From: Bryoerythrophyllum caledonicum
Lineage: Eukaryota > Streptophyta > Bryopsida > Pottiales > Pottiaceae
Assembly: GCA_963971425.1 (NCBI GenBank)
Contig: OZ020523.1
Coordinates: 19,511,105-19,575,104, forward strand
DNA: 64,000 nt
Reading direction: 5' to 3'
Positions within the stretch are counted from its first letter, which is position 1, and each line of letters opens with the position of its first letter. The position numbers were made by a program, and so were the translations under genes. The notes under the pieces were generated by a model. The model worked only from the letters and a program-made list of their open reading frames with translations, had not been told where the DNA came from and ran no database searches. Below, one piece after another: positions 5,678 to 61,670 of this stretch.

Positions 5678-7368
5678 GCCTTTGGAGTGCATGAGACCCA
5701 AAATGGGACTCTATCTCAATTTGCATGACATTCATAAGAAATAGGTTGTTGAATTTGAAGTTTTGATTTGCGCACGACGCTCTACGAATATCATGGTTTG
5801 GTGTTGTTGAACTCGTGGAAAAGTTAGAAATATAACACAAAATACATTGAATACACTAAAATACAATGAATATCATGCCGCATACTATGTTGTATTTCAT
5901 ACACATGTAAAATGGGTTTGGTCTTAGATTTTGATTGATATTTGTCTTTAAGAGATTCTTTATTGTTTTGTGACTGTTGACCTCTTTCATCGCATACAAA
6001 TTTTTTTGTTTTAATTCGTATGGGTTTGGAACATTTTTGTATACGATCAAGGAGACAAAAGTGAAAAAATCATCAATAACCATGTATAAATGTTTTCTTT
6101 ACATATGGTATGTCAATGTGAAGCTATCAACCTAGTGCACATGTGAACCACTTTTATTCATGGTACAAGAATTCTTGGAGGAACCTATTGATATAGAAAG
6201 TAGTATGCCCTCCAAAGTCCACAATTTTTATTACCAATATATAGTAATTTTAAACACTATAATCTATTCCATCAACTGTTGGATGTTGTGCAAATTTTTC
6301 TCAAAATTGAGGTCATGGTTTAACCCCTAAAGGACCACGACCACTTTTGCTCTAAAACCAGTCCAAAACTGCCATTGCCAAAAAGAGACATGAAAATCAC
6401 ATTTTAAAGTGAATTTTGGATTTCAACTGTAAGCTCTTAAAATAGACTTCTATATAAACATGCCACAAAATTTTGGTTGCAATCCACCGCATGGGTTGAT
6501 AGATTTTAGTGTTTGAAGTCAAAACAATAGTTCATTTTCTTCCCTGCGTTGAGTAGATCAACAGACTTTGGCTTCACTATGTATCAAATTTTTGCATTGT
6601 ACAAGGTCTAAATCTTTTACCATTGTCTTAAGCATGATGTTATTTCCCTACACACCAATTTTTAGAGGTAAAAAAGGGGTGTAGCATATTCAAAACAAGT
6701 GTGCAAGGAGTGGAGGTTCAAAAATTGCCATTTCACGTTTTATTTTTTTGTGAACTACGTATGTATTTGAATGATAATCCAAACGGTCAATAAGAAGGTT
6801 TTCACCACATATTGTTGTTGAAAAAATAAAAAGTGAAAAATATGAAGATCTCTAGGTTTTATGTAGAATAGATGAATTTTTTTTCCCGCGTTGCCCAACA
6901 ATGTGTGAAAATGTTTGACTTGGAATAAAATACCTTTTTACACTAAAGACAAGAATTTTTTTTAAATTTCCAAAGAAGGAAATATTCTTTATATGTGTGA
7001 AAAATCTCAATGTCAATAGAAACTTTTGTCAAAAAAATTGAAGGTGCCCGGAGTCCCCACTTTTGGCTTTAAGTGGTACTAACTTTCAAATCACAAATCC
7101 AAAAATAAAATAAAAATATCTCCACAGAGCTCTTATCAGAGGCAATCTAGAATAAAAATTTCAGAGAAAAATGATATTTTTTCAAATTTTAGAAACCCGT
7201 CCAAAATCAGAATTCCCCCCGAAGGAGATTTGGTCCTTTAGGGGTGAAATTCAATTATGTAGGGTTGGATACTTAAATTAGGCATTGTATTTCCATCAAA
7301 GTTAGCTCAAAGAAAAAAAATCAGCACATTTTTTGGTTTTGGAGAAACAAGCACAAAGTTCCAAAGGG
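5678..7368. mobile_element. TTAA-target element, family A copy 1, interrupted by a B element
   Basis: Matches the A copies at 10,888 and 55,987 along its length ('gaatacaacacaaaatacat', 'ccgttggatgttgtgcaaa'). The right end ...CCAAAGGG|TTAA is intact at 7,369-7,372; the left end has decayed near 5,678. Between 6,324 and 7,244 it is split by a complete B element, after which the A sequence resumes. Confidence 0.75.
6324..7244. mobile_element. TTAA-target element, family B copy nested in an A element (921 bp)
   Basis: Ends CCCCTAAAGGACCA / TGGTCCTTTAGGGG are perfect inverted repeats, flanked by TTAA (6,320-6,323) and TGAA (7,245-7,248, one substitution). The sister A copy at about 11,550 carries the undisturbed target 'ggttaaattcaatt', so the insertion point is directly visible. 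No transposase frame. Confidence 0.85.
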
Positions 7369-12163: not shown

Positions 12164-15023
12164 ATGCAGCGTCGTCGTCGTTATGGCGTCTGGCAATTGG
12201 TGTGTGTGTTGCTCGCGTGGTGGGGTGCATCAGCTCGGGGAGACGAGGATGCGCTGTCGAGGTTCAAGGCGTACTTGAGGATCGACACATCGCATCCGAA
12301 TGTGGACTATGGCGCAGCCGCGGACTTCCTCCTCGCGCAAGCGCGCGAGGTGGGGCTGGAGGCGCGCCGGCTGGAGTTCGTGGAGAAGAAGCCCGTGGTG
12401 TTGATGTCGTGGGCCGGGTCCGACGCATCGCTCCCATCCGTGTTGCTTAACTCGCACATGGACGTGGTGCCTGCGGAGCGAACCAAGTGGAAGCACGACC
12501 CTTTCGCGGCCGTTGAGGTGAGTGGGGTTGAGTCTTCGTGGGTGGATTGCAGGGCTTAGGTTTTTTGTTTGTGCAATTGACGTGGTTGCAATGGAACAAA
12601 AATTGCCCACTCCTCATCCATGTGAAGAATGGAGAATGGCTTACCCTGCCAACCTTCTCTCCCATCTTTAATCTTTACAGAAATCCTTCCGCAGAACGGC
12701 GTGACACCCATTAAGGGATATGGTAGAGTAGTTTACAGTTTTTGGTTCTTCAGTTGATACGATCTAGGGTTTAGGGTTTTGGTGAGCAAAGGATATGGTA
12801 TGTTTTTTAGGATTTTGGGTTTTATGGATTTAATGGTATGGTTTTTTAGAGTTGTGGGTTTTAGGGTTTTATAGCATGTTATGGTATGGGTTTTAGGGTT
12901 GTGGCTTTTATGGGTTTTAGGTTTTTTAAGGGTTTAGGGTTTTGCAGTTGATATGGTTGCAAATTGGCAATGCAGGACGCCGAGGGCGACATCTATGGAA
13001 GGGGTGCCCAGGACATGAAGGGCGTGGGGATGCAGTACCTGGAGGCTGTCCGCTTGCTCAACACCACCACCAGCTTCCGCCCCACGCGCTCCATCCACAT
13101 CTCCTACGTCCCAGACGAAGAGCCCGGCGGCACCGACGGCATGGCAAGATTCGCCTCGTCCCCGGAATTCTCCAGCCTCAACGTCGGCATCACCCTGGAC
13201 GAAGGCCTGGCATGCGCGGAGGATTTCTACCGGGTTTTCTTCGGGGAGCGGTCGGCGTGGCGGCTTATCATCAAAGCGGTCGGGGCGCCGGGGCATGGCT
13301 CGAAGCTCTTCGATGGGAGCGCCATGGAGAGGCTGCGTGAGAGCTTGGGCGCCGTTTACAAGTACCGCGAGAACCAGTTTGAGATGCTGAAACAAGGCTT
13401 GCGAACGGAGGGCGAGGTTGTGGCGGTCAATAATGTGTTTCTACGAGCGGGGACTCCAACGCCTGAGGTATACTCCTTAAATCAACTGAAGTAGGGTTTA
13501 GGGTTAAGGTGCTTGATCAGATGAAGGAGGGTTTACGGTTCACGGGCTTGATCTCTCCTAATGTGTGGTTTTGGGTTTAGGGTCATGTGATGCACCTGCA
13601 ACTATCAGAAGAGCTTAGGCTCATCTCTCCTCATGTGTCGTCTTTGGGTTTAGGGTTTTGTGACGAACGTGAGTTCCTAGGGTTTAGGGTTTAGGGTGTC
13701 CTTAATCCCTTCTCATGTGGTTTTTGGAGTCTAGGGTTTCGTAATGAACCTGCAACCATCAGAAGCAGAGGCAGGGTTCGACATTCGTGTGCCACCACTG
13801 GTGGACATTGAGGAGCTCAAGGCAGAAATTGCTACCAAGTGGGCGCCTGCTTCTCGCAATCTCACCTACACTGTAAGAACACGTCCATGGTTTTGATGTC
13901 AACATCGGTTTATGATGAAATTATGTATCAGTAGAGCTATTTGTAACATCACTCAAAGTCACAAGAAGATACGCCTCGTTTGATCTATTATGCTACTACT
14001 CTTCCCTCACTCTTTCTAGTTATCAGATCGATAGAAGAGCTTGGTAGTCTTTCATTTAGAATCCTTAGAAAAGGTCAATGGAAGAGTCCCTAAACTCAAG
14101 TCAAATTGTCTTTGTGAGTGAAGAAAGAGTTGGATGAGGTTCATCAGCCGTCTTCCTCTCAAATTATTTAGAGATGATTCTAATTCAACAGAGGGGGATA
14201 TCTTGTTCGAACGTCTTGTGACTTAACAAAACAACTCTACTATGATCTTCAACTTGGTCATCTTCCAAAGCCAACTGTGAATGAAGTTGTTTGGTCTGAG
14301 ATCAGTTCCATCTTGGTGCTCATGCAGTTCATACCACTGGCGCCACAGCCTTCCAAGGGCCTGCGGCTGGCAACAAGTGCGAGTGAGATGAACCCATGGT
14401 GGAACCTGTTAAGAGACGCTGTGCAGGGAGCAGGAGGGAAGCTGGGCGTTCCAATGGTGCGTCCATCCGCCACTGATTCCAGATACATCAGAAATCTGGG
14501 CACCCCTGCCTTTGGGTTCTCGCCCATGTCCAACACCCCTTCACTTCTTCATGACCACAACGAGGTACACCATCTCAGCCTCCTGGAAATGCCTGAGTTT
14601 TGACCTCTTTTCTCATTTTAAATTCAGTCTTATACACCTTTTAATTCATCTACAAACAGTTCGTGACCTCTTCTTCCTTAGCAAACGTGGCTGAATCCAC
14701 TTCTAACTTGAGTCCAGAGAGCACGTCGCTCTTCCATAATTGGTAAGGATTACAATTTAGAGATTCTTCCATAAATCTATCGAGAGTAACCAAAGAGTAG
14801 TGTTTTATTAAGCAAAAGAGGGGTATCTTATTGAATCTTTGGGGGACTAACTCAACTGACACACCTGATCCCATCTTGTTGAGTGAGTTGCTTCACTCTG
14901 ATGGACCTGTGATATGTGATGTAGTTCTTGAATGCGCGGGAGTATCTAAAGGGCATCAAAGTGTACAGCGAAATCATCAGGGCTTTTTCAGGTTACGTGG
15001 ACAATACACGCTCTCCTAATTAA
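12164..15023 (+). CDS. ACY1: aminoacylase-1 (N-acyl-L-amino-acid amidohydrolase, M20 family)
   Basis: Zinc enzyme that hydrolyses N-acylated amino acids. Five exons, all joined in phase 0: 12,164-12,517; 12,976-13,467; 13,735-13,872; 14,328-14,564; 14,925-15,023; 439 residues, the usual plant length. Introns are GT...AG. An N-terminal hydrophobic segment (about residues 8-22, after five basic-region residues) looks like a secretory signal. M20 metal and catalytic motifs are in order: SHMD (His98, Asp100), GAQD (Asp131), PDEEPGG (Glu166/Glu167), DEG (Asp193), GHGS (His225) and LLHDHNE near 400-407. The start at 12,164 puts the signal peptide first; plus-strand frames at 12,081 and 12,148 are shadows. 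Exons are GC-rich. Introns 1 and 2 are full of TTTAGGG-like words, and introns 3 and 4 carry copies of one MITE. Every known active-site motif is present, so it is probably functional. The family is certain; the exact splice sites are inferred. Confidence 0.93.
12518..12975 (+). other. aminoacylase intron 1, rich in TTTAGGG-like motifs
   Basis: GT...AG intron. From about 12,765 to 12,955 it repeats words such as 'tttagggtttt' and 'gggttttaggg', the plant telomere-type motif in degenerate form. Intron 2 (13,468-13,734) shows the same words. Confidence 0.75.
13962..14206. mobile_element. small MITE in aminoacylase intron 3 (family M copy 1)
   Basis: Begins 'caagaagatacgcctcgttt' and ends 'agagggggatatcttg', an imperfect inverted pair. 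The same sequence order appears at 31,338-31,569, and an inverted partial copy in intron 4 near 14,680-14,832. The class is not clear. Confidence 0.55.
14680..14832 (-). mobile_element. partial MITE in aminoacylase intron 4 (family M copy 2, inverted)
   Basis: The right end 'aaagaggggtatctt' is the complement of the left end of family M, and 'gagtagtgttttatt' continues the match. The other boundary is uncertain. Confidence 0.45.
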
Positions 15024-28729: not shown

Positions 28730-31113
28730 ATGCATCAGGGGGAGAGGGAGGAGGGAGTGGCGGAGGGGAAGATGGCGAAGAAGGAAGGCGGGGGGTTTAG
28801 CACATGGCTGCAGCGCGTGCGGCGCTCCGGGGAGTACTCGGACGTGACGGTGCGGGTGGAGGGGGAGGAGTTCCGGCTGCACCTGCTGCCGCTGCTCAAT
28901 GCGAGCTCGTACTTCCGGAACATGACCGGCAACCCGCACTGGTCGTCCGGGTGGAGCTCCAGTGCGGGCCAGGGCGGGAGCCGCGTCGTGTCGTTGCCGG
29001 ACTTGCCAGGTGCGTCACCTAGGGTTTCAGGGAGAGGTTGCGGTAAGAGGCGAGCGCGCGGTGAGCGGAGGATGAGCGCATTGTCTCTGTGAGGGGAGGG
29101 TGAGCGCAAGAGATCGAGAACTGAGTTTCGTAAAGACGAGAGAACGAGCGCATAGTTTCGGAGAAGACAATGTGCGGAAAATGAGATCGACAGCAGAGTT
29201 TCGGAGAGAGGAGAGATTGAACGCAAGAGTTCAGAACCGAGTTCTGGAAAGAGGAGAGAACGAGCGCATGGTTTCGGAGAAGAGAATGTGCGCTAGATGA
29301 GATCGACAGCAGAGTTTTGGAGAGAGGAGAGATTGAGCGCAAAGTTGAGAGAGAGAGAGAGAGGAGGATGATTGAGCGCAAGGTTGGGAGAGGAGAGTGA
29401 TTGCAAAGCTATGGAGAGTGGAGAGATGGAGCAAGTTTCGGAGAGGGGAGGGCATTCAGTGCGAGGTTTTTGAGAGAGCAGACACTGAGCACATTGTTTT
29501 GGAGGACACATTGTGCTTACACGGCTTTGGTATTGCTGTAGGGGGAGCGGAGGGGTTTTCCGGCGCGGTGGACTACTGTTACTTGATAAAGCCGGCGTAC
29601 AGCGTGCACAATGTGGCGCTGATCCGTGCGGCGGCGGAGTATCTCGGGATGAGCGACGTCCTTGAGAGCACGAAGAAGTTCCTGTACACGAACGTTTTCG
29701 CGCACTGGCGCGCGAGCGTGGGGTTTCTGGCGCAGTACCGGCCCCTGGGCAGCACGGTGGACGAGTACATTGAGACGCGGTGCCTCAAGGTGTTGGTAGC
29801 AGCGCTGGCGCGCGCGTTCGGCGAGACGAAGCACCTGTCGGCGCCGATGCCGCTCTCGACCGTGAACCTTCAAAGTTTGCCGTGCCAGGCGCTGTCTGAG
29901 ATTCTGGTGCGCGCGGCATCTCTACCCGACACGTTCGCCGCGGAGGCACTGGACGCCCTCGTGGAGGCGGACGTGAACTTGAACGCCAAGTGCCGGCAGG
30001 GACGCAACGTGCGCAGCTGGCTGGACAGCGTGGTGGATGACGAGTGCGCGTCCGATCGCGCGCGCTGCTGGATCGTGCTGTGCCTCGCGCGCATGCTCAC
30101 GCGCGCCGCGCCCGACTCGCGCCCTTGGCTGGAGCTCTCCTCGCAGTACTGGTGCAGCCTGCTGGAGCATCTGGACCGCCTCTCGGCGCTTCTGGATGAC
30201 GACGAGGACATGCAGGAGAAGCTGGTCGACGTGAAGCGCGTCGTGGAGCGCCGCGTCGGGGTCGGCCTCGACGAGCTCGACGAGTACCTGCACGAGTACA
30301 AGTTCGCGCCTGAAACCCTAATGGCGGTCGTAGGGTTTTACGTCGATGAGGCTCGGCCGGATCCCAACGATGGCTCGTTCGAGGAGATCGTGCGCGATGT
30401 GGATCGCTTCCTGTGGTCTTATGCCGAGGCAGGATCCATTTGTCCTGAAACGTTCGTCGCGCTTGTCAAGGTATGTAGAGATGCGCAAGCGTTTGTTGAT
30501 GAGAGATGCAATGGTTTGGTGATGTGTGAGATGCAAGGGTATGGTATGGATGTGAGATGTTTTGTTTTTTTTCTAGCAGGCGTTTCCGAGTTCGTCCCGG
30601 CAGTCGCATGATACGATATTCCGGGCGGTGGAGAAGCTGTTGACGACTCGGGAGGAGATTACGGCGGACGAGAAGCAGGGACTGTGGCGGCTGGTGGACC
30701 ACGGGAAGCTGAGTCCGGCGGTGAGCGAGAAGGCGCTCAGCAATGCGGGATACCTGAGCCAGCCGCACATCCTGGAGATGGTGCTGCAGAAGCACAGCGA
30801 GGATCTGGCCAAGGTGCCGGACTCGGAGGGGCAGAACATGCGCCACATCATGCAGAAGGTGATCAACGCCAGCTTGAAGCTGCTGGAGGAGAATTCGCGG
30901 CGGTCGCAGGAGATCGAGGAGCTGCAGCAGAAGTACTCCGCGCTCACGGGCGGGAAAGCATGCGGTTTGGAGGACAGCTATGATAACAGCCCTAGCCCGT
31001 GTTGGAGGCCCAGTTTGACCATCACCAATCGCACCCGGAGCGAGACCGAGGGATCTGAGTACTCTGAGACGCCGTCGTTGGCCACTATGAGCTCCATAGG
31101 TGCGCATCATTAG
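28730..31113 (+). CDS. BTB/POZ and NPH3 domain protein
   Basis: NPH3-family proteins serve as substrate adaptors for CUL3 ubiquitin ligases; several act in phototropin or auxin-transport signalling. Exons 28,730-29,009, 29,542-30,470 and 30,580-31,113 give 580 residues; the first junction falls inside a Gly codon, the second in phase 0. Domains: BTB about residues 24-135 (YSDVTVRVEGEEFRLH, then LPLLNASSYFRNM); NPH3 about 180-480, with the conserved block SRQSHDTIFRAVEKLL...LWRLVDHGKLS; a coiled-coil-like Leu/Glu stretch near 505-530 (LKLLEENSRRSQEIEEL); a Ser/Thr-rich tail. The start at 28,730 and the Met 14 codons later are both possible. The last exon could instead splice at 31,099 to 31,658 and end at 31,698, replacing GAHH with EPRLNLRDIYSLD. 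Exons are strongly GC-rich. The specific subfamily cannot be named. Confidence 0.9.
29110..29341 (+). repeat. tandem duplication (~116 bp x 2) in NPH3 intron 1
   Basis: Two adjacent purine-rich units share 'gagagaacgagcgcat', 'tgagatcgacagcagagttt' and 'ggagagaggagagattga' in the same order, about 116 bp apart. More worn fragments continue to about 29,480. The intron spans 29,010-29,541, so this occupies nearly half of it. Confidence 0.8.
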
Positions 31114-36480: not shown

Positions 36481-39400
36481 TTATGGGGGGTCTTGTGTAT
36501 CGGGGAGGGCTTGGTTGTTTTCAATTTTACGTTTATGGAGAAGGATTGACATAGCATGTTGTATGGCAATGATGTTAATATTCTTGAAAGTGTTTGTAAT
36601 AGTATCAATAGGAATTTTGAAGGTGTCGTCTAGGATTTTAATAGGTGGGATAAAGGTGGTGGCACGAGCGCCAGCTGTGATTACAATAAGGGGGTCTACT
36701 TTCGAGCCGAGGGCAGTGATGTCGTCAATAAGGGGTCGGTATTTATTGATTTTGTTTTCTATTGTTTCTGAGAGAATCTGTCATTGCGATATGTAAATTT
36801 GATGAATTGAATGATGTAGTCTTGGTTTATGTGGTCGGGTGGGGGGTCATTGTATGGTAGGCCTCTAACACATAGGATGTCTGGTTTGAGTCGGGCATTG
36901 GAGTAGCATCTTTGAGTTACATATGTACATGGGAGTAGCCATTAGAGAAGTTTTGGGGTCATTGAAAGGCCCCCTGAGCCCAAAATCGGGCAGCTGTTTT
37001 GAGCGGGAAATGTACAAGACACATTAGAAAATCGTAGAGGCACATAAGGTGCCACCTTGCTGCCGCACTCGAGCTCATGCAAGTTCGCAGCCAATCACTG
37101 AACTGAAGTCTTGTGCTTGGGTACAATAGACATCGTACTTTCGCATGTGTGCTTAGACGTACTCTCAATATTTAAGTAGATCCACGGCCTTTGAATTTTT
37201 TTTAAAACAACAACATTGTCCTAGCCAGACTGAATAAACAAGCTGTAAATTTATGGCGGGAATCTGATGACATGGATTAATGGTGCACAATCTAAGTATG
37301 TAATCATCCTCTTTCCCAGCCCCAGGCGTCTTAGCTATTTAGTTTCAAAAGTTTTGAGGAGAGAAGCAAGTTACTTTGTTGCTAGATGTTGAAGCCATTG
37401 GAAGAGGTCCATAGTGTCGTGCTCCACAACACTGTGGATGCACTTGGTAAGTATATTCCACTGCGCGAACCGTAGACTGAAAATTCAATATTTCCTCGAA
37501 CCGTAGACTGCAAGTTCAATATTTCTTGAACATCGCTTACGTGCTTAATGTATCCAAGCATACCCTGCTCGTTGTGGCACAAAAATTAGATATTCTTTTG
37601 TAGATACTCTAGATATTCTTTTGTAGTGCGGAAGCTTAGAGGTGAATTGGTAGCTGGATCCACTGGATATAAACCACCATCAACCCAGAGGTCAATGTGA
37701 ATTTCACCAACTACCCTCCTTGCCGCAAAGGTTAAACGATTGACTTGATCATGCAAGAACGTGCCTCTCTTCATAACTGAAGCATAGCTAGAACTCAACT
37801 TGACAGCAAGAATATAAGTATTTGTAACATCTCTAAGTGTCATGCTGATGCAACGTTAAAATCAGTGTTGTCTACCAATCTGACAAGAAAGTATCACTGG
37901 AAAGTGAATCTAGGACACGTGATACTAAACGTCAACTCAAGTCATTGCAAAAACATTGTGCTACATCAGAGGTCGAAGACAAGGTTGACAAAAACTTGGC
38001 GCATGCCAAACATGCCACATGCCATAAATCACACATCTTCCCGCCAATTTATTTTGCTCCTTCCCGCCCTACTAAAGCTGAAGTGGCATAAGTTTTTAAA
38101 TGATTTTATAGCACAAGTCATTTTATACTATTTGTGAGCTGGTACAGTAAAGCCTCATTTGCATATTTTATTGATGTAGTTGTTTGGTACATGTGATACT
38201 AAATGGTTTTTCTTTAGACTGAAAGGACGGGAATTTTTTTTAAAATCTGTGAGCTAAAAAGTGCCGTGATCACGCTGGCATGATCTATTATTGTTTAAGC
38301 ATGCCATCTCAGATTTGAGCATCCCACATCACAGACCGTGAAGGCATAATCATGTCGTTTTGCTTTGTGGCTGGTCCTTTAGCTGGACGACAGGGACGAC
38401 CAACGGCCGGGGTAGGCTTAACGTACCACTACCCAAGCAAGAATATGCTCAAAGGTACCATGCCCGAAACTCCCTTAAAGGGCATCTCAATGACCCCAAA
38501 ACTTTTCTAATGCATGGTGGGACGGTGTTTTCTTGTGGATTGTTATTAAAGGTGCCGGCATTCATGAGAATGAAGCATCTCGATTAATCATGGGAGGTGA
38601 TTAGTTTACGAATTTCCCATACGGGTTTGCTATGTCTTTTGACAATTAAGGAGTGTATGTGATGGTTATGACATTTAAGTAAAACATGTAGCCATGTGTT
38701 GGGGTCCGTGGAAGTGCATATGGGGCATGTTATGGATGGGAATCTTTCTATTCCAAAGAAGAGTTGTTTTCGGGCGTTTCCCATATATTGATCGGTACGG
38801 AATTTAATGAGGCATGTTATTTGTGAGTCTGAGATGATGGGATTTTTCCATAAATTTGTAGAGAATTCATTGTCTATATTGTTGTTGCCAGTCCATTTAT
38901 CTACATTAAGGAAGATTTCTGCAATTGTATCAAGGTTGTTATAGAGGTCTTGTTTCTTGAGATATTTGTTTAAGAATCTAACCGGGCCTTTGTTGGGGGT
39001 ATCTTCTTTAGAAAGCCAATCTTCTCTTTGGAAGTAGAAAGGGGTAGCATGGGCATGTTCGTATGGGTTTTTGGCATTTTAATGCGATTTTTTGCGACCT
39101 TCTTTTGCAAGTTTATCTGTTTGTTCGTTTCCATCAATATTGGCATGGACTTTAACTTTGTGAAGAGTTGTTATTTGTGTTCAATTTTGTAGCATTTGGA
39201 CCATTGATTTTAATATAGTTTGGTCGGGGTGGATATTGTGGAGGGTAGGGTGTGTTATTTGGGTGTTTAGTAGATATAGTGCATTAATAGAGTCAGTGAA
39301 TATGTGTGCAGGTTCATTGTTTTATTTTGATATGATGATTTGTAGTGTTTTGTGTATGGCCGTAAGTTCTGCTGTGAGGATGTTTTGTAGTCCATGAAGT

Positions 39401-46235: not shown

Positions 46236-47787
46236 ATGGATCCCGCAACCAGCACTGCTACTTCCACAAGCAACGGTCCAACGCCAAGCCGCCAACGGGC
46301 TCTACAACAAGTCCCGACAATCCAGGCACGTCAGCAGGTTGTTGCCTAGATGGTTGAAGACTGAACGCTACGGGGCCAACGAGGGTTGTATGGTTGGACA
46401 ATCCACGCATTTCTAAAGCATTTTCGAGGCTAACACAACACAAGCATAGTTCGGGCAATGTGGTGGTGGACGCTCAGAGACACAATTCTACCCCTCGTTG
46501 AATCCCTTAACAACGTCGTATTATCGTTTATCCGCAACACCAAGGGCAAGCGAAAACGAGTCCTAAACAAAGTTGTCAGTGGACGGGGCCCACAAAGGTC
46601 GGCTTGGGTCCAATGACTTTACCCACGTCTCTTCCATTCATTCGATGTCTACAAAAGTGTTGGAGTAAAGTTCTCTAATGTTGTCCTTCTTGAATTGACG
46701 CTCTCAATTCTTCTTGCCTTAGACTTGCCTTATACGTCCAATCTAGATATCCTAAGGATGATAGACTCCTCATACTAAAACCGACACTCTTGTGGATAAA
46801 ACAATTTATGGATGTACATTATAATGTTTTACTATCACAACGGGGCCGAATTTTTTTTTCTGCGGCTTGTCATTTGGAGGTTTTACAATGGAGATTTCAT
46901 TCTAGGGCGTTTGATGAAAATCTTTTTGAAAACTTGGATGAAACCCATTTTACCATTAATGTGGGCAATGGGCAAACTTTCGGTTTTTGTGGGGATTCAA
47001 TGGTAAAATATGCGGATGTTGTTGCTAAGGGGGAGGCAATGACGATGGCTGTTCGTATTTTGAGGGGTTGAGGTCCATCATAGAAGCCCCAGTGCTAATT
47101 TTCAGAAATGAAAACAACAACTATCCCATCCGTGGATTAAAGGATTCTATTCTTGGAGTGTCTTACCGAATGGCCCAAAAGGCTGGATGAACCAATCCAT
47201 GTTTCCTCAATACTTTGAGGATCCTCGAGCCTATCAATCGAATGTTCACAACCGCACTAAATACATTTGGGTAGACAATTGTATAGCGCACAACATCAGC
47301 CCTAGATTAGCCGTGGTTTTAGCTCAAACAAGATTCGTATTGAAATACTTACCTCCATGTTCAACTCATCTTTGTCAACGGGCGGACACTTTCATTATTT
47401 CCGAGATCAAAGATGCGTGGACAAAACGGTGGGAGACCAAAAAAACCCAACTTATTCAAATGAACGCTTGGCAAAACAATCCCCGCGGTTATGGTCAATG
47501 GTCCGGGAAACTTACCAATCTGGGTAAGAGATTTTTTCCTCCAATTAGCACCACTTCCGGTTGAAGATGATAATCGTTTAATTGATTGTGATAATATGTC
47601 GTATGCGCAAAAATCTATAACTAGATGTGGCCTAGCTTTAGGGTTGGATGACACTTGGACTATTAATCAATTATTTCCACACCTTCAAGATATCATTGCA
47701 AAACGCCGTCCATATTTTGAAGGAGTAGAGGTGCTAGATTTGCCTACGGCAAATGAATGTATATTTATGTGCTTTTTAACTTATTAA
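46236..47787 (+). pseudogene. pogo-like DDE transposase, frameshifted
   Basis: Conceptual translation in several frames follows a pogo-type (DDE_1) catalytic domain: LDETHFTINVG (first Asp, about 46,945), YIWVDNCIAHN (second Asp, about 47,275), LPPCSTHLCQRADTF (third Asp, about 47,385; 36 residues after the second), then KDAWTKRW. Frames break at about 47,070, 47,165 and 47,500, and the N-terminal part from the ATG at 46,236 (after a possible AG acceptor) has several stops. The pattern resembles the large pogo group common in oomycetes and found sporadically in plants. No terminal repeats were identified. It is a dead copy. Confidence 0.75.
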
Positions 47788-48218
47788 GTTGCCATGATAT
47801 TTGGCTTACTATGTCTATGTTCTTGTTTACCAATCTTTTCTTGCAGATGTATCCATTTCTTTTGTTGCAATTTTATTTTCCTTTCATGTCTATGTCATTC
47901 TTTTTTCACTTTTTTTGTTGCACATATTTCCTTCTTTTCACATTCCTTCCATGCTTAAGTCCTTCTTTTTTCACCTTTTTTTGTTGCACGCGTTTCATTT
48001 TTTTTCATTCCTTCCATGTCTAAAGTCTATTATTTTGCATTCTACTTCTTTCACATGTTTCAATTTTCTTCCACATGGTTTTCTTGGTTGCAATTTTATT
48101 TTCCCTCCATATCTATGTTCTATGTTTCTAGTCTACTTTTGCAAATGTTTCTTTATTCAAATCTAGGTTCTATTTTTTCCAATCATTTTTGTTGCAATTG
48201 CTTGTTTTTCTAAATGTA

Positions 48219-50891
48219 CAAAGGGTGACATTCAAATTGGCCGTTTAGTAGTTCCAGGGATAGTGTCCTACACTGCTGCCAACTTTGACACCCTCCCCAA
48301 AGCTGAGAAATTGTTATTTTACCATGAAACTTTGGGGACAGCATCATCTTTATGTTGAAAATATGCATACCAAATTTCAAGTCCAGGAGACTTATACAAA
48401 AAAACTTATGCAAGATCTACCAACATGGGGTAGCTGTGAGAAAAGTGTCACAACTGCCAACTTTGACACCCTCCCAAGAATTGAGGAAATTTTTTTTGCC
48501 CATGAAATTTTTGGAGCAAAAACATTTTTATGTTGTTTGCATGTGTGGAAAATTTCAAGTCCAAAAGACCCATACAAAAAATAATATTCCAAATCTACCA
48601 ACATGTGTAGTTTTGAGAAACAAAGGGGAAAACCATTTTACTACTTCCAATTTGACGCCCTCCTTAGGATTGAGTTTTTGTTGATACATAATGAAATTTT
48701 TGGCACAAGATCATCTCTACGCTGGTAACATGTGAGATAAATTTCAAAGCCAAAAGATGTACACAAAAAAGTTATTTCATATCTACCAACGTGTATGTCC
48801 TCCATTAGCGTCAATCACTGCTAGTAACCTAGAGGGCATAGAATGACATAGTTGAAGGAGCTTTGTACCATTGACTAGCTTCCACTCTCTTTCAAGAACT
48901 ACCTTCAATACATCTAAGCTTCTAGGACATTGTTTGCCATGTTGCACAACATCTTTTAACATCCTCCAAACGTTCTCGATTGGATTGAGATCGGGAGAGT
49001 TTGCAGGCCAGTTGAGCTTTTCGAGAAGGTGGCTTTGTCTCCATTCTTCACATATTTTGCTCCTATGGACGGGTGCCCCATCTTCCATAAGCACTCCTTG
49101 TGGAATTTGACCCATGAAATGAACCAATTTGGCATCGTAAACCACTTCTATAAAATCCTTAGCATAACGTTGACCTTTAGTCATAAAACAAGTTCTGACT
49201 TTTGTCCTCTGGCAAATGCGCCCCAAATCATTAAAGAAGTCCTTCCACTTTTAAAAGTAGGAGCTAGACAACTTGATGAATAACGCCATATGCACTTCTC
49301 CAAACATGAATTTGCCGAGAATTTTTTCCAATTTCAAAAGTAGATTCATCTGTCCAAACAACACGCTCCCACTCTTTTGCACTCCATCCACGGTACTTCT
49401 GAGCAAAAGCTAATCGTTGAGACATGTGACAAGGTGTCAAAAAAGGTTTTTTGACTGCAATTCGACTAAAAATGCCATTTTTATGTAAGACCCTTTGAAT
49501 AGTACGTCTACACACTTGAGTAGGACATGCATTGGTAATCTCTGAGAGTGAAGAGCAACGATGAGTTTTTGAGTAATGCACAATACTACGAACATCTCTA
49601 TCACTAAGCTTTTTAGCGTGACTTCCACCGCAAGGTTTGCGCTTGTAGGTTCCATCTTCTCTAAATGTTTTTACTAACCTTGTAACTGTTCTAATAGGAA
49701 CTCCAATAGTAGCTGCAATTTGAACTCCTGTAAATCCTCCCTCACTCAAACCTATGATGCGAGTACGAATTTCATCTGAAATTGCCATCATAAACTTATG
49801 GAGTGCGTGATGCTAGCTACAGCAGTAGAGTAGGGGTTAGAGCAGAGCAAGGGGGAGAGAAGGGAGCCAAGGCGCTGGAGCAGAGAGGAGAGAGAAGGGT
49901 CGCCAAAACACAAGCCCATATGCATACATGGAAAATCGTTTTGCTCTTAATCACTCATCATGTATGCCCAATGTGAATCAACACTCATGCATCCCACAAT
50001 ACAACACTCTCTGTTTTGAGGATTGTCTCAACATTCAATCTATCACAAATCACACACACCATTCCCTTTACATAGTGTTCAATAGATATTTAGAAGAAAA
50101 AATTTGTCATGTGTATAATGCACACTTTATGGCAAGGTGGATTCTTCTGCATGGATCACCTCTTCACTTCTTCATTTAGATGTTATTGATCTTTTTGAGA
50201 AGCATTTATGTTTGGTGGCTTACTCACATGATTGAGTTCAATGAAAAAGCATGAGGTGTCAAAGATATTTTGACATTTTCAATATGACCTTCAAATTGTT
50301 TATCATAGATACACATGTTGATAGATATGGAATAACTTTTTTTATGAATGTCTTTTGGCTTTGAAATTTATCCCACATGTTACCAACGTAGAGATGATCT
50401 TGTGCCAAAAATTTCATCATGTATCAACAAAAATTCAATCCTAAGGAGGGCGCCAAAGTTGGAAGTAGTAAAATGGTTTTCCCCTTTGTTTCTCAAAACT
50501 ACACATGTTGGTAGATTTGGAATATTATTTTTTGTATGGGTCTTTTGGACTTGAAATTTTCCACACATGCAAACAACATAAAAATGTTTTTGCTCCAAAA
50601 ATTTCATGGGCAAAAAAAATTTCCTCAATTCTTGGGAGGGTGTCAAAGTTGGCAGTTGTGACACTTTTCTCACAGCTACCCCATGTTGGTAGATCTTGCA
50701 TAAGTTTTTTTGTATAAGTCTCCTGGACTTGAAATTTGGTATGCATATTTTCAACGTAAAGATGATGCTGTCCCCAAATTTGTATGGTAAAATAACAATT
50801 TCTCAGCTCTGGGGAGGGTGTCAAAGTTGGAAGCAGTGTAGGACACTATCCCTGGAACTACTAAACGGCCAATTTGACTGTCACCCTCTTG
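48219..50891 (-). mobile_element. Tc1-type transposon with ~580-bp terminal inverted repeats
   Basis: A 2,673-bp element flanked by TA (48,217-48,218 and 50,892-50,893). The ends start CAAAGGGTGACA (left) and CAAGAGGGTGACA (right, complement) and stay inverted-repeat-like for about 580 bp (48,219-48,800 and 50,300-50,891), far longer than usual Tc1 ends. Each arm contains three ~180-bp subunits marked by 'aactttgacaccctc'. The transposase relic lies between the arms on the minus strand. The arms are very similar, so the insertion is fairly young although the gene is broken. Confidence 0.85.
48783..49791 (-). pseudogene. Tc1-type DD34E transposase, frameshifted
   Basis: Two main minus-strand frames. 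49,791-49,264 (175 residues) starts MMAISDEIRTRI, holds the helix-turn-helix DNA-binding region (about residues 5-110) and the first catalytic Asp in VVWTDESTF (Asp148). 49,226-48,783 has the second Asp in VLMEDGAPVH and the Glu of SPDLNPIENVW exactly 34 residues later: DD34E, the Tc1 signature. Between them SLMIWGAFARG is readable in a third position, so at least two frameshifts and a stop separate the parts. No active transposase can come from this copy. The gene occupies the middle of the TA-flanked element. Confidence 0.88.
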
Positions 50892-50893
50892 TA

Positions 50894-53022: not shown

Positions 53023-53381
53023 GTCTAGAAAGCTAGTTTCATTGGCTCTGATCGAGTCCATGTGCGTTTCCCGAACTAGTAGACGTTGTGTCGTCGTGGA
53101 GTTGAATTGTTGGCCAGCTTAGACTTCAGCAACAACAGAGAGCTCTAGCAAGTCTTCGCAACGTGTGTGATGAGGGTTGCGAGTCGTGTATCGTGAATTT
53201 CTAGAAAGTTTTTCTCGCAATTCTCTCTTTAGAACGTCGCCCTGATCAAACATTCGAGTGAAACTGGTGGAGATTGATCTAGAGGGTGATCCGAACAGGG
53301 GGACACTTTTGGGTGGTGAATTGCGAGTTCGACGTGTTGTTGATGTTGCTAGAGTTGGTGTGATTGTTTGTGGTATCCACG

Positions 53382-55986
53382 ATGGGCGGGGGGTGTTGGG
53401 GCGCGTTGAGCGTGGTGGAGTTCAAGATGCGGCTCTTGCGGCGGCACTTGAGGGCGTGCGGGCTGCGCGCGGAGGTTGTGGCGATCGACAGCGAGACGAC
53501 GATGCACTGCTGGACGCCGACGCCGCCGATGGCCGAGGCGGGCGTGTGGTCGATGCCCAACACGAAGCCGGCGCTGCTCCTCCTGCACGGGTTCGCGCCC
53601 AACGCGCTCCTGTGCTGGGAGCATCAGGTGGCCGCGTTCACCCGCGATTACAACGTGTACATCCCCGACCTGCTCTTCTTCGGGGGCTCCGTCACCGAGG
53701 GGAAACAGCGCTCCGAGACGTTCCAGGCCGAGTGCGTCGCGAAAATGCTGCAGTTCCTGGGCGTGCAGAACGACGTGGACGTCGTGGGCACCAGCTACGG
53801 CGGCATGGTGGCGTTCCGCATGGCGGAGAAGTTCCCGGAGTTCGTCAACAAGGTCGTGTTCTCGGACTCCGGGGTCTGCATGAGCCCCGACAACGACGCG
53901 CCGCTGCTCCGGAAGCACGGCATGACCCACATCTCCCAGATGCTCGTGCCGTCCTCCGTGTCCGACCTCCGCGCCGGCATCGACAGCGCCATGCATAAAC
54001 CCCCTTGGTTGCCGGACTTTGTGTGCCGAGACATCCTCAAGGTGTGTTGCGTGTTTTGGTGCCGTTTCTTTAGAATTAACTTGGTTTCCTCAAGGTACAG
54101 AGTTCTTGTTTCGATGTCTGAGGATTTCTGTTTAGTGTTTGGTATTGGATCTGGATGAGCTTCTCTCTGCAAAGGTATGACATAGTTCGTGTTTTGATGT
54201 GTAAGGATTGCTTTTTAGGGTTTGTTTTTTGGATTACAGTGAGCTTGTTTGCTGAGAGAATGGGATGTCTTTTAATGTTTAGGGTTGGGTTCTGGATTAG
54301 GATGAGCTTAGACGTGGCAGAGTTGTTGTTTCTCAGGGTTTGGTTTCGGTTCTCACCTTGTTTCCAAAAATTGATCCTTAGGGTATGGCACACTGTTTAG
54401 GGTTCATTTTCGCTTCTTTGCAGAGACACGATCCCTCAGATGAGGATTATACTACTTTTGTCTGCAGGATCTGACACACATGAAGAGTGATTACAGGCAT
54501 CCCATCCTATTGATCTGAATTTGGTATGAGATAAAGGTGGAATGGTTTTTCTGATTTTTGCTTCCAGACGTTGCACGAGGAGCATCGTGAGGAGAGGAAG
54601 CAGTTGCTGGATGCATTGGTGATTGGCACGGAGGCGGCGTTCCCGCTGCCAAAGCTGCAGCAGGGGCGTGTGTTGATCGTGTGGGGGGAGCATGATGCCA
54701 TCTTCAGCACAGACTTGGCCTACAAGCTCCAGAGGTTGGTACACGTTTTCTCCTCTCAATAATCATCTTCTTCTTTGTCAGAGACCAGCATTTGCCATCC
54801 TGTGATACACATACATCCTGTCATGTAGGAAATTACTGAAGTGTAGGTCAATCTTTCCGCCGCCTTTTGTGAAAGGTGTGGCTGGCAGCTTTGTTGAAGT
54901 TTGTCATGTCAGAGATCATTCTAGAAAAAGATGCCAAAACTGATCTTCTCAACATGGAGACTGATTCAGTTGCGGTCTCTGGCATGACACTGCAACAAAC
55001 GTGTGAGATAGACTCATTCTGCTGCAATGGATAATATGAGAAAAAAGTAAAGTAGAAAAGACAATGCATTACAAGCTCCAATTGGGTTTTAAAAATACAT
55101 ATAAAAGTACTTATAAAACAGAAATGACAGGGATGAAATGAATTTCTATTGCACGAACAATAATGTCAAAATCTTGATAATGTCAATAATGTCAAAATCT
55201 TAATAATGTCAATAATGTCAAAACAATAATGTCAAAATCTTTTGACTCGGCCTTTCTCCAAGTCATACTCTAGTTGAACTACCCAGTTGACTTAAAACCA
55301 CCAGATTTCTATATCATAGTTAAGTTTGAGGAGCAACATATCATTTTTTTTAGTATATCATGAGGGATGTCATAAAATCATGTCATGTACAAGTGTTCAC
55401 TGTTCACAATCCAATGTACAATGTAAACAATCATGTACAATGTTTCCATGCTTTCTCTTGTGCCAAAAAAAACTACTCTTGTTCTGAGCACCGTACTCTG
55501 ACACCCCTCGTTACCATATTCTATCAAGATATGGGACCCATCCAAGTGTGACCATGTGTCAGCAATCTAGAGCTTTCAGTGTTCACAATCCAATGTTTAC
55601 ATTGTAGAGCCTTCACAACTGTTTGCAGTCAGTTTTGAATGACATAGTGGAACATGTTTACATAACAGGAAATATGAGTGGTTGCTTTGCATGCATATTA
55701 GAGCTCATGCTTATAGTTGATGCAAATCCTTCAAAATTGACGCAAAATTGTGGTAGGTTGGTAGTTATTCACCATGAGATTAAAGGCAGCTTTAGTCAAA
55801 CCCCTGGATTTTGCCGTGAGCTGCTGAGGATTAATCGCAAACATTTGGACATGTGATGGCAGGCACTTGGGACAAAGTGCGGAGGTGATTGTGATGAAGA
55901 ATTGTGGCCATGCGCCTCAGGCGGAAAATCCCAAAGAGTACAATCAGATTATTTTGGACTTCCTCAAGAGCTCTGCGTCTCCTTAA
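53382..55986 (+). CDS. alpha/beta-hydrolase fold protein
   Basis: Serine hydrolase of the plant alpha/beta-hydrolase superfamily; substrate unknown (esterase or lipase-like). Exons 53,382-54,041, 54,568-54,734 and 55,863-55,986 give 316 residues; junctions are phase 0 and phase 2 and all introns are GT...AG. Motifs: oxyanion loop LLLLHGF (65-71), nucleophile elbow GTSYGG (Ser138), acid Asp263 in VWGEHD, His292 in NCGHAP. The triad and spacing are complete, so it is probably active. No signal peptide or membrane anchor is obvious. The ATG at 53,382 is the first in a good context; the larger plus-strand frame beginning at 53,258 is a shadow. The stop codon TAA lies inside a TTAA transposon target, and the element starts with the very next base, so the native 3' UTR has been displaced. 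Confidence 0.9.
55155..55245. repeat. tandem repeat in hydrolase intron 2
   Basis: 'aataatgtcaaaatctt' is reiterated about four times with partial units between. The intron is long (54,735-55,862) and holds no ORF of note. Confidence 0.75.
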
Positions 55987-58860: not shown

Positions 58861-61060
58861 TCAGGCGATGGTTCGCTGCTGCCTCACTGATCTTGACCCC
58901 GGTCTGATGCCTGAGAAGCCAAGACCGTCCACGATAGATGTGGAGGAGTCCAGGGAGCTCACGGACTTCGAAGTCCCCATCAGATCCTCGATGGAATACT
59001 GCGGCTTCCCGAACGCCGCCTTCGGGTGAGGCACGGACACGTCCGGCACGGCCGCGTCGCCGGCCAGCACCTGCACCACCTGCCGCATGGACGGCCGCTG
59101 CGCCGGGTCCGGGTACGAGCACAGCATCCCCAGCTTCAGCACCGTGCACATCTGCTCCACGTCGAACTGGCCCAGCAGCAGCGCATCCGCCACGCTCAGC
59201 AGGTTCTCCTCGACCATGCGCCGCCACACCAGCTCCCCGAGAACCAGGTCGTCGTAGTTCTCGACTTGCCCGTCGACAGCCTTGCGCCCACACGCCACCT
59301 CCAGACACACTGCGCCGAACGCGAACACGTCCGTCTTGTCCGTGAACTTGCCACCGGTGGCTTCCGGCGCGATGTACCCAAACGTGCCGGCGACCATGGT
59401 CGTCGGCACGTTCTTCTCGTGGTCCACCAGACGCGCCAATCCGAAGTCCCCCAGCTTCGGGTTCAGCTGCTCGTCCAACATGATGTTGCTCGACTTCACG
59501 TCGCGGTGGATCACTTGCCGCCGCCACCCTTCGTGCAGGTAGTGCAGCGCTGCCGCCGTGCCGGACACTATCTTCCACCTCTGGCTCCACGAGAGCACAG
59601 CCTCAGGAGTCTGCCAACATGCAGCCAATGTCGGAACGTGGAACACACATCGAGGAATTGAATTACAAGTGACCATTGCACTGCCAGAGATGGTTGGCTG
59701 GATGTCATCTCACCTCTGGTTTGAAGAGAGCTTGATCGAGGCTGCCGCGGGGCATCAGCTCGTACACGAGCAGGAACTTGCCGCGGTCTCGGCAGAACCC
59801 CACGAGCTCCACGATGTTGCGGTGCCGGAGCTGGCTGATGATCTGCACCTCCGCCAAGAACTCGCGCTCGCCCTGCCGCGAGTCGTTGCTCACACGCTTC
59901 ACGGCCACCGCCGCGCCCGTCTTCGGCAGCACGCCCTTGTACACGCTCCCGAACCCGCCCTCGCCCAGCTTCGACTGATCGCTGAACTGCTTGGTGGCCA
60001 CGCTGAGGTGCTTGTAGCTGATGAAGTCCGCCGCGACCCCGGCCATGTCTAGCAGGGCTGGGTCGTTGTTCCAGAGCGCATCCCGGGCACGCTTCCGCCG
60101 GTACAAACACACTCCAATCACCGCAGCAAGCAATAGCAACGCCCCCCCAACTGCCGACCCCGCAATGACCGCCACGCTGAAAGAGTCGATCTCGAAAGAG
60201 TCGATCCCGAAGCTGGAGAAGGTCCAGTTGTAGATGTAGTAGACCGACCAGTGATCACCCACCGCACCCGAGAAGCCAATCCACATCGTCTCCTCCACCG
60301 CGTCGTATAGATCATAATAGCAATCAAATAGTGGCGCGTCTGGTCTGGACGAGGTATTCGATATTCTGAACTGCAATTTCCTCTTCCTCCCATCGTACTC
60401 AATCCACGTCTGAAGTATATCTCGTTGCCATAACGAGATGTTGATCTTACTTTGGTTTTCAAGATAACTAAAACAAGGGGCTCTGTCATCTGTGACGGCG
60501 CTTCCCACGTCCAACCCCACATGATCTCTTTGGGCCAAATAACGGTCAGTGTCATCGCTCACCCAGTTGTCGAACTCGATTGCGATCAAATTCGGGTCTG
60601 TCGGTTCCGGCATCAATCTGAAAAACCCGAAGCGTCCGGTGGATTCTCCCATCCAGGTGTTGGAGCTGGACATCATGAAGGTGAACCCGTCGCCTCGTCT
60701 CCACGTATCGTTCACGTTGTTGTCCGACGCGTTGTAGACCTCGGGCTCCTGTCGAAAGGTGAAGCTGGTGTTGAAGGACGCCATAGTCCTTGTTGCGGGG
60801 TCCTTCATGCGCACGGCTGTGTTGTAGTAGGCGATGCCCATGGCGGCCTGGCAGCTTGCGCCGGTCGGGGTGCGGCACTTGTCCACGTCGATCAGGATGA
60901 GCGTCTGGTTGTCGGCGATAAACTTGCATTGATCCAGGCAGAAGAACTCGTCCGCCCTCAGTGGAGTGCGCATGGTGAAGTTGCCGTTGACGTCGGCAAC
61001 GATGAAGCCACATGCGAGGATGATGAGCAGGAACACATGGTGATCTCCTCGTGTGCTCAT
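58861..61060 (-). CDS. L-type lectin-domain receptor-like kinase
   Basis: Cell-surface receptor kinase with an extracellular legume-lectin-like domain and a cytosolic Ser/Thr kinase; relatives act in defence and stress sensing. Two exons on minus: 61,060-59,714 and 59,610-58,861, phase 0, 698 residues. Signal peptide about 1-26; lectin domain about 28-290 with many N-glycosylation sites (NFT, NTS, NDT, NIS, NWT); transmembrane segment about 295-320, then a basic stop-transfer (RRKRAR). Kinase about 363-640: GEGGFGSVYKG, Lys388 in AVKRV, HRDVKSSN (Asp486), DFG (504-506), GTFGYIAPE; all catalytic residues are present. The lectin metal-site motif EFDNW...HVGLDVGS departs from the usual D-x-N pattern, so calcium-dependent sugar binding is doubtful. 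An upstream in-frame Met at 61,120 would add 20 residues; the second Met is preferred because the signal peptide then starts the protein. The intron is short (59,611-59,713). Confidence 0.93.
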
Positions 61061-61120
61061 CGTTGCTAACTTCTCATTGCTGAATCCAAACTCCGGCCTG
61101 CTATCACTCAAAATCTGCAC

Positions 61121-61670
61121 TTCCCATGGTTAATGCATAATCTCACGTGAACAACAACACCAGCTAACAAGCACAAGTGTAGTCTTCAAACTTGCGGATA
61201 TATCGTCCAACAACATGCACAACCACCTCTAGTACATGGAATGAGATGCCGTGCGGTGGCTTGAGCCTTCAGAGTCTAGGGTAGACTACAAGTTTGCATG
61301 TCCAAATTAGCAGACAGAGACCATTACTAATATGTTTTCACCAATATACTAAGCTAAATTTAGACTGCAGTCATGTTCTAGTGATACCCGTGATTATATG
61401 AGCATGTGTAACAGTGGATTTACAGACAAACTCGACAAGCATAAGTGGAACAATCTCTGCGTGATAGTTGCGGCTACATTGCTGGAGCTGGAGAAATCTC
61501 CACCGTTCGAGCATCCACTGGCGCCAGCGTAGGCTAGTTCACCGTGTGAGATGTGGCTAAAATAAGCCGACGGCCTTTCTCCTTTGACAAGGTCCGCACG
61601 GTCCTCACTGCACAAATCCTCACAAATCCTCACTGCACAAATCACTCGGTCCTCGGATCTCTTTATTTCA
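61121..61670. other. upstream region of the lectin receptor kinase
   Basis: Should contain the kinase promoter (read on minus). No convincing TATA box or known motif was found. A short 'cacaaatcctcactg' direct repeat lies at about 61,611-61,640. Confidence 0.35.

Follow-up and report, generated by a model that had tools for sequence, protein, structure and literature searches.

Tc1-like transposable elements with a DD34E transposase were reported from moss in 2014, together with elements or fragments of elements in nine angiosperms (Liu and Yang, PMC4054914). As far as that report's available sections go, the moss elements described in it, PpTc1 and PpTc2 of Physcomitrium patens, resemble the element analysed here in their DD34E Tc1-like transposase (338 aa there), TA duplication and moss host, and also in a recent multi-copy amplification that includes open genes. 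PpTc1 and PpTc2 are, however, 1,584 and 1,709 bp long with 33-bp inverted repeats and CAGT ends, whereas the family described below is 2.78 kb long with 579-bp inverted repeats and CAAT ends (PMC4054914). The first-pass annotation of our locus had presented a DD34E transposase in a plant as a surprise, but the host is a moss (below), and with moss DD34E elements on record since 2014 (PMC4054914) there is nothing new in the catalytic class. We consider it highly probable that the locus holds a dead member of a DD34E/Tc1 family of cut-and-paste DNA transposons that was amplified recently in a moss, with the mechanism proposed below. The design of this family is clear: elements of 2.78 kb carry one gene for a 336-aa transposase between inverted ends of ~579 bp, each built from three units of 178–190 bp.

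The 64,000-nt stretch of DNA that was analysed is called the window here, and Table 1 lists the features mapped in it. The span first proposed for the element, 48219–50891, is exact, in that the element begins with CA, ends with TG and has a TA on either side. BLAST alignment of the two ends (96.1% identity over 583 bp) bears out the proposed ~580-bp inverted ends, and the ~180-bp repeats said to compose them were found as three direct units per arm with spacings of 178 and 189–190 bp. In the window copy 432 nt of the arms are 98% complementary and a further 149 nt 85%. All three reiterated units of each arm are present as annotated, but both arms carry a degenerate third motif, and over their inner 149 nt they are only 85% alike. 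The terminal 21-mer (≤3 mismatches) occurs within the 64,000-nt window only at the two ends (mean 0.00 in shuffles, n = 100). The window-copy ends read CAAA and CAAG. Relative to an open copy from elsewhere in the genome (L026), the window copy lacks 103 bp in the region upstream of the gene, whose frame is broken by two internal 1-bp deletions; this copy is dead. Directly to the left of the element lies a DDE_1 transposase fragment (47112–47564; Pfam 1.1e-5), which we take to be pogo-type.

Table 1. Features of the element and host genes in the window (positions count from the first letter of the window)
Feature	Position	Strand	Basis
TA target-site duplication, left	48217–48218	.	flank TGTA
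TA target-site duplication, right	50892–50893	.	flank TACA
Terminal inverted repeat, transposase-gene 3' end side	48219–48799	+	~580 bp, three units
Terminal inverted repeat, transposase-gene 5' side	50308–50891	-	~580 bp, three units
Direct-repeat motif 1 (GCCAACTTTGACACCCTCC), putative transposase-binding site	48278–48296	+	arm position, conservation in sisters
Direct-repeat motif 2	48456–48474	+	arm position, conservation in sisters
Direct-repeat motif 3, degenerate	48646–48663	+	arm position, conservation in sisters
Direct-repeat motif 1, other arm	50813–50831	-	sequence, arm position
Direct-repeat motif 2, other arm	50635–50653	-	sequence, arm position
Direct-repeat motif 3, other arm, degenerate	50445–50463	-	sequence, arm position
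Transposase N-terminal piece (helix-turn-helix units, first catalytic Asp)	49264–49791	-	from start codon; open frame 49812–49264
Transposase C-terminal piece (second Asp and Glu, D-34-E)	48783–49250	-	open frame 49250–48783
L-type lectin receptor kinase, host gene	58861–61129	-	
Alpha/beta hydrolase, host gene	53364–54158	+	
M20 peptidase fragment, host gene	12952–13494	+	
NPH3-family fragment, host gene	30577–31113	+	

A transposase search of the genome assembly (437 Mb, 894 contigs) gave 3205 candidates, and the 150 of these that were scored are all 93–100% identical. Forty loci were fetched, the 20 top transposase matches and the 20 top end matches without a listed transposase match, a sampling that favours complete copies. 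Both arms are present at 37 of the 40 loci (one of these copies, L011, lacks a tip), and the 37 copies are 2492–2783 bp long, 30 of them within 2778–2783 bp. Among the three loci without an arm pair, L014 and L043 keep one arm, and L029 keeps only 1.25 kb of the element's interior, with a transposase copy but no inverted arms. Most ends read CAATAGGGTGACATTCAAATTGGCCG; CAGT termini, on which the 2014 report lays stress (PMC4054914) and which we take as typical of such elements but not as defining them, are here replaced by CAAT in most copies. The sampled copies (n = 37) have a mean pairwise identity of 97.54% (95.61–98.53), and no two are identical. The search for an intact copy turned up open ones: a full 336-aa ATG-to-stop frame is present in 12 of the 37; nine of these frames have D, D and E, and the other three lack a catalytic residue. 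A 29-base end pattern (≤3 mismatches) matched the genome 795 times (395 + 400; 0 matches for the reversed control) and, as each copy has two ends, this corresponds to roughly 400 copies. The first 100 end matches listed include 39 pairs ~2.5–2.9 kb apart, with 22 ends unpaired at zero mismatches, and no short MITE-like derivative was seen among these 39 pairs or among the 37 elements. Judged by sequence likeness, the family is young and recently amplified, though the window copy is dead. The genome also holds a second Tc1-like group, for which 119 matches were scored out of 4216 candidates and whose identity with the Physcomitrium protein is 51–57%; over 1.68 kb two of its loci, L057 and L058, are 99.9 and 99.7% identical to a third, L056, and L059 is 96.2% identical to it, so this group may have moved very recently.

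The arms were compared in 36 copies as assembled (72 arm rows, L011 left out), and the outer 455 bp were also treated separately, a cut that was set after fixed differences were seen to begin near 461. Recent insertion by itself might explain why the arms of a copy are alike, the copies being too young for their arms to differ: the family is young at 97.54% identity, and over the whole 579 bp the divergence between the arms of a single copy, 2.24%, is close to, and not below, that between copies when like arms are compared (2.18% for 5'–5' and 2.12% for 3'–3'). If youth were the whole cause, however, a copy's 5' and 3' arms should be as different as 5' and 3' arms taken from different copies, and they are closer than that: 2.24% within a copy versus 3.00% between copies over the whole arm, and 1.11% versus 1.89% over the outer 455 bp, with none of 5000 re-pairings as low as the observed value for outer part and whole arm alike. 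Likewise, among the outer-part variants found in exactly two of the 72 rows, 29 of 42 are common to the two arms of one copy and 13 to arms of different copies, where chance predicts 1 in 71. We therefore regard recent insertion only as an improbable explanation. These statistics show that mutations are shared between the arms of a copy, most clearly in the outer ~455 bp; the inner parts are 6.4% apart within copies. We infer that the sharing arises from gene conversion between the inverted arms, or from a switch of template between them during repair.

The units of each arm carry a 19-bp motif, GCCAACTTTGACACCCTCC, which in L026 lies at 61, 239 and 429 bp from both tips (with two mismatches at 429). 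Sister families with the same end design were found abutting L021 (78.5% over 576 bp) and beside L054 and L056 (71–73%), and further sister pieces at L012 and L039 are 78 and 76% alike. The sister ends at L021:1–632, L054:1–330 and L056:1687–2001 are long and unit-built with CAGT termini, and they abut or adjoin other Tc1-like copies; two of the long-ended sister families begin with CAGT. At units 1 and 2 the motif is 89–95% conserved in the sisters, whose ends are 71–79% alike overall. The unit 3 motif is 84–95% conserved (two pieces only) and is not distinctive, at 84% versus a 78% mean in the full sister. In a scan of the L021 sister by 20-bp segments (mean 78%), the fully identical ones start at 53–59, 237 and 367; those at 53–59 and 237 overlap motifs, and the one at 367 carries none. 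The tips are 65–76% conserved, no better than the rest of the arm. It is plausible from these sequence comparisons that the unit 1 and unit 2 motifs are several putative transposase-binding sites. The tip itself resembles the motif only when inverted (p 0.004–0.005, eight tests, uncorrected), so the layout differs from the textbook inverted-repeat/direct-repeat one. Within the arms, direct-orientation copies of the tip are no better than in shuffles at units 1 and 2 and at an outlying fourth site, and at unit 3 there is a 13-bp match (p 0.04, uncorrected). The last codons of the transposase gene and its stop (TRW-stop, window 48783–48799) fall inside the inner arm edge, in a block that is repeated in the other units, and the units may once have grown out of the 3' end of the transposase gene.

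The Tc1-type group is usually described as requiring only TA at its target. The flanks of the present family are more specific than this: 28 of 38 copies (window copy included) are flanked by TGTA at the left end and by TACA at the right, even with L011 (lost tip) and L052 (misplaced boundary) counted as misses, and TGTACA makes up 36 of 3975 TA sites (0.9%) in the window without the element. The possibility that TGTA and TACA belong to the element as part of a longer inverted repeat, and do not reflect a target preference, draws on the G at -3 in 35 of 37 copies and the C at +3 in 36 of 37, which look as fixed as the end bases. We judge it very unlikely. Other left flanks do occur among the 37 copies (AGTA in four, AATA in one and AGTT in one), and beyond TGTA/TACA no matching duplication was found in the flanks of the copies examined. 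At one clean empty site it is refuted: the joined flanks of L023 match window positions 36679–36942 (86%), where a single TGTACA with a single TA stands at 36924–36929. The TA flanks first noted at this locus are supported as a target-site duplication by the flanks of 37 copies and an empty site.

A second empty site, at window positions 6598–6603, is less simple. The joined flanks of L041 match the window at 6357–6849 (92%) and also match L035 (91%), with GCATTGTACAAGG at the empty site, where the filled site of L041 reads GCATTGCACAGTA–element–TACAAGG. The extra CACAG is most readily explained by a mutated TA together with the CAG footprint of an earlier, CAGT-ended element. More diverged spanning matches (72–84%; for L013, L022, L026, L051 and L053 and other copies of the L041 and L023 repeats) have drifted too far for a judgement and give a mixed picture, in which one for L022 keeps TGTACA and several do not. 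The sequence TAC(A/T)GTA abuts seven of 38 copies, versus four of the 1457 TA sites (274 of these sites being GTA) in the flanks, and it is the context of one of the 36 TGTACA sites in the window. In two cases a pair of copies, L018 with L046 and L023 with L052, sits at the same place of one repeat. At L021 the element and its sister share one TA, and at L056 two other Tc1-like elements appear to share one TA, their ends being placed by the divergence points of copies. Taken together, the CAG/CTG footprints and the abutting elements point to use of these sites by further Tc1-like families as well. Because the element begins with CA and ends with TG, each insertion into TGTACA rebuilds TGTACA at both ends, so that insertion would not consume the target and related families could settle at a site already occupied or next to it.

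The transposase was assigned to the Tc1 type from the outset, with a D-34-E spacing and a helix-turn-helix N-terminus, and each of these points was upheld. Exactly 34 residues separate D238 from E273 in the open copy L026, and its triad (D148, D238, E273) is invariant across a 26-row alignment; in the 105-row tree alignment DDE is present in 102 rows and the spacing is 34 in 102. In the window copy Pfam finds HTH_Tnp_Tc3_2 (2.7e-15) alongside DDE_3 (2.7e-15), and the DNA-binding part has the bipartite paired-like helix-turn-helix form (HTH_23 and HTH_Tnp_Tc3_2, with PAX below cut-off; profile matches to Tc3 1u78 and Pax). The nearest solved structure is the Sleeping Beauty catalytic domain (1.5e-29). 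The AlphaFold model of P0046, a 98% identical protein (pLDDT 90.6, pTM 0.68), has six N-terminal helices, and Foldseek returned Sleeping Beauty as its best match and Mos1 next. Structure match, profile and fold thus all place Sleeping Beauty nearest, and profile, Pfam and fold put the protein closer to Tc1/Sleeping Beauty than to mariner. A phylogeny against Tc1/mariner clades had also been suggested; a tree of 105 rows was built, without mariner or plant DD39D rows, and placement in Tc1 as opposed to mariner therefore rests on spacing, Pfam and profile scores. In this quick tree the family lies in an eight-row clade (SH-aLRT 100, no bootstrap), whose other members, the seven closest rows P0046–P0052, are 65–98% identical to the transposase. 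Relatives from Physcomitrium, Parasitella and Austropuccinia are 41–43% identical among the 120 relatives listed; the Physcomitrium protein P0135 (41–42%) falls outside the eight-row clade.

Could the element be a plant mariner-like element of the DD39D Soymar/Osmar type, misread as DD34E? Such elements likewise have a TA duplication and were the first mariner-like elements known in plants, according to the part of the 2014 report available (PMC4054914), but here the spacing is 34 with Glu as the third residue, Pfam at E values up to 1 returns HTH_Tnp_Tc3_2 and DDE_3 and nothing named mariner, and the profile scores are 3.1e-51 for Sleeping Beauty versus 4e-6 for Mos1, so that spacing and profile scores together rule this reading out with near certainty.

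Thirteen chromosome-size contigs of the assembly were examined (20–65 Mb, together ~414 Mb), as were five further contigs, each under 90 kb. The lectin-receptor kinase gene of the window, compared over 59705–61129, has its best match in Ceratodon purpureus (73%) and its next named match in Pohlia nutans (59%), both mosses, and the host is therefore a moss, the kinase matches pointing to one close to Ceratodon. Fungal or animal DNA in a contaminated or chimeric contig, to which the fungal relatives of the transposase at 42% (Parasitella, Austropuccinia) might point, has next to no chance of being the source, since transposase matches of 93–100% identity lie on all 13 chromosome-size contigs examined, some copies sit in repeats also found empty in the window, and the window carries a host gene with its best match in Ceratodon purpureus; the distribution of the copies rules contamination out, and the contig is plant nuclear DNA, as had been asked of it.

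The DD34E/Tc1 reading suggests the following course of transposition. The bipartite paired-like helix-turn-helix domain of the transposase would bind the unit motifs, the protein would pair both ends, its D-D-34-E site would cut the element out, and the element would be joined into the TA of a TGTACA palindrome, an insertion that would recreate TGTACA at both ends; the inverted arms would be kept alike by gene conversion or template switching in repair. The broader proposal of a moss Tc1-like lineage in which arm conversion maintains three-unit ends and a strong TGTACA preference rebuilds its own target is tentative, and we hold it to be somewhat less than an even prospect. If it is true, a self-renewing target would let several Tc1-like families reuse sites, leave footprints in them and stack on them without exhausting them. 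The question shifts from the presence of Tc1-type elements in plants, which was answered in 2014, to the origin of very long multi-site ends, how such ends stay alike and why the target is so specific. With ~400 young copies, some with open genes, this moss suits direct tests of arm conversion and target choice, and tool builders would also be interested in a transposase of the Tc1 type that strongly prefers a 6-bp target.

Among the known systems, Sleeping Beauty, a member of the inverted-repeat/direct-repeat (IR/DR) group, is like the present element in being its closest solved structure, and the present element shares with that group direct repeats inside its inverted repeats. Each end of Sleeping Beauty has two direct repeats of like orientation, with the outer repeat lying at the tip; the present element differs in having three per end, none of them at the tip in the same orientation. 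The ends of the Bari elements are shorter than those described here. Bari2 and Bari3 of Drosophila are, like the present family, Tc1-mariner elements with long inverted repeats, and Bari3 has three direct repeats per end that are proposed transposase-binding sites (PMC4120734); they are animal elements, and the available portion of that paper does not mention 180-bp units. Galileo, also of Drosophila, is long-ended too, and in its F subfamily the ends contain direct tandem repeats of ~210 bp; in the text available, secondary binding sites are suggested, as is conversion between the long ends (PMC3573991). Galileo, however, belongs to another transposase superfamily (P), and its repeat number varies between copies (PMC3573991), whereas the aligned arms of the present copies have one common three-unit layout. 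Plant Tc1-like ends of such length and make-up, measured arm conversion and a TGTACA preference were not found in the open-licence literature searched. Both the class and the end design thus have precedents, and it is the structural and target details that set this family apart.
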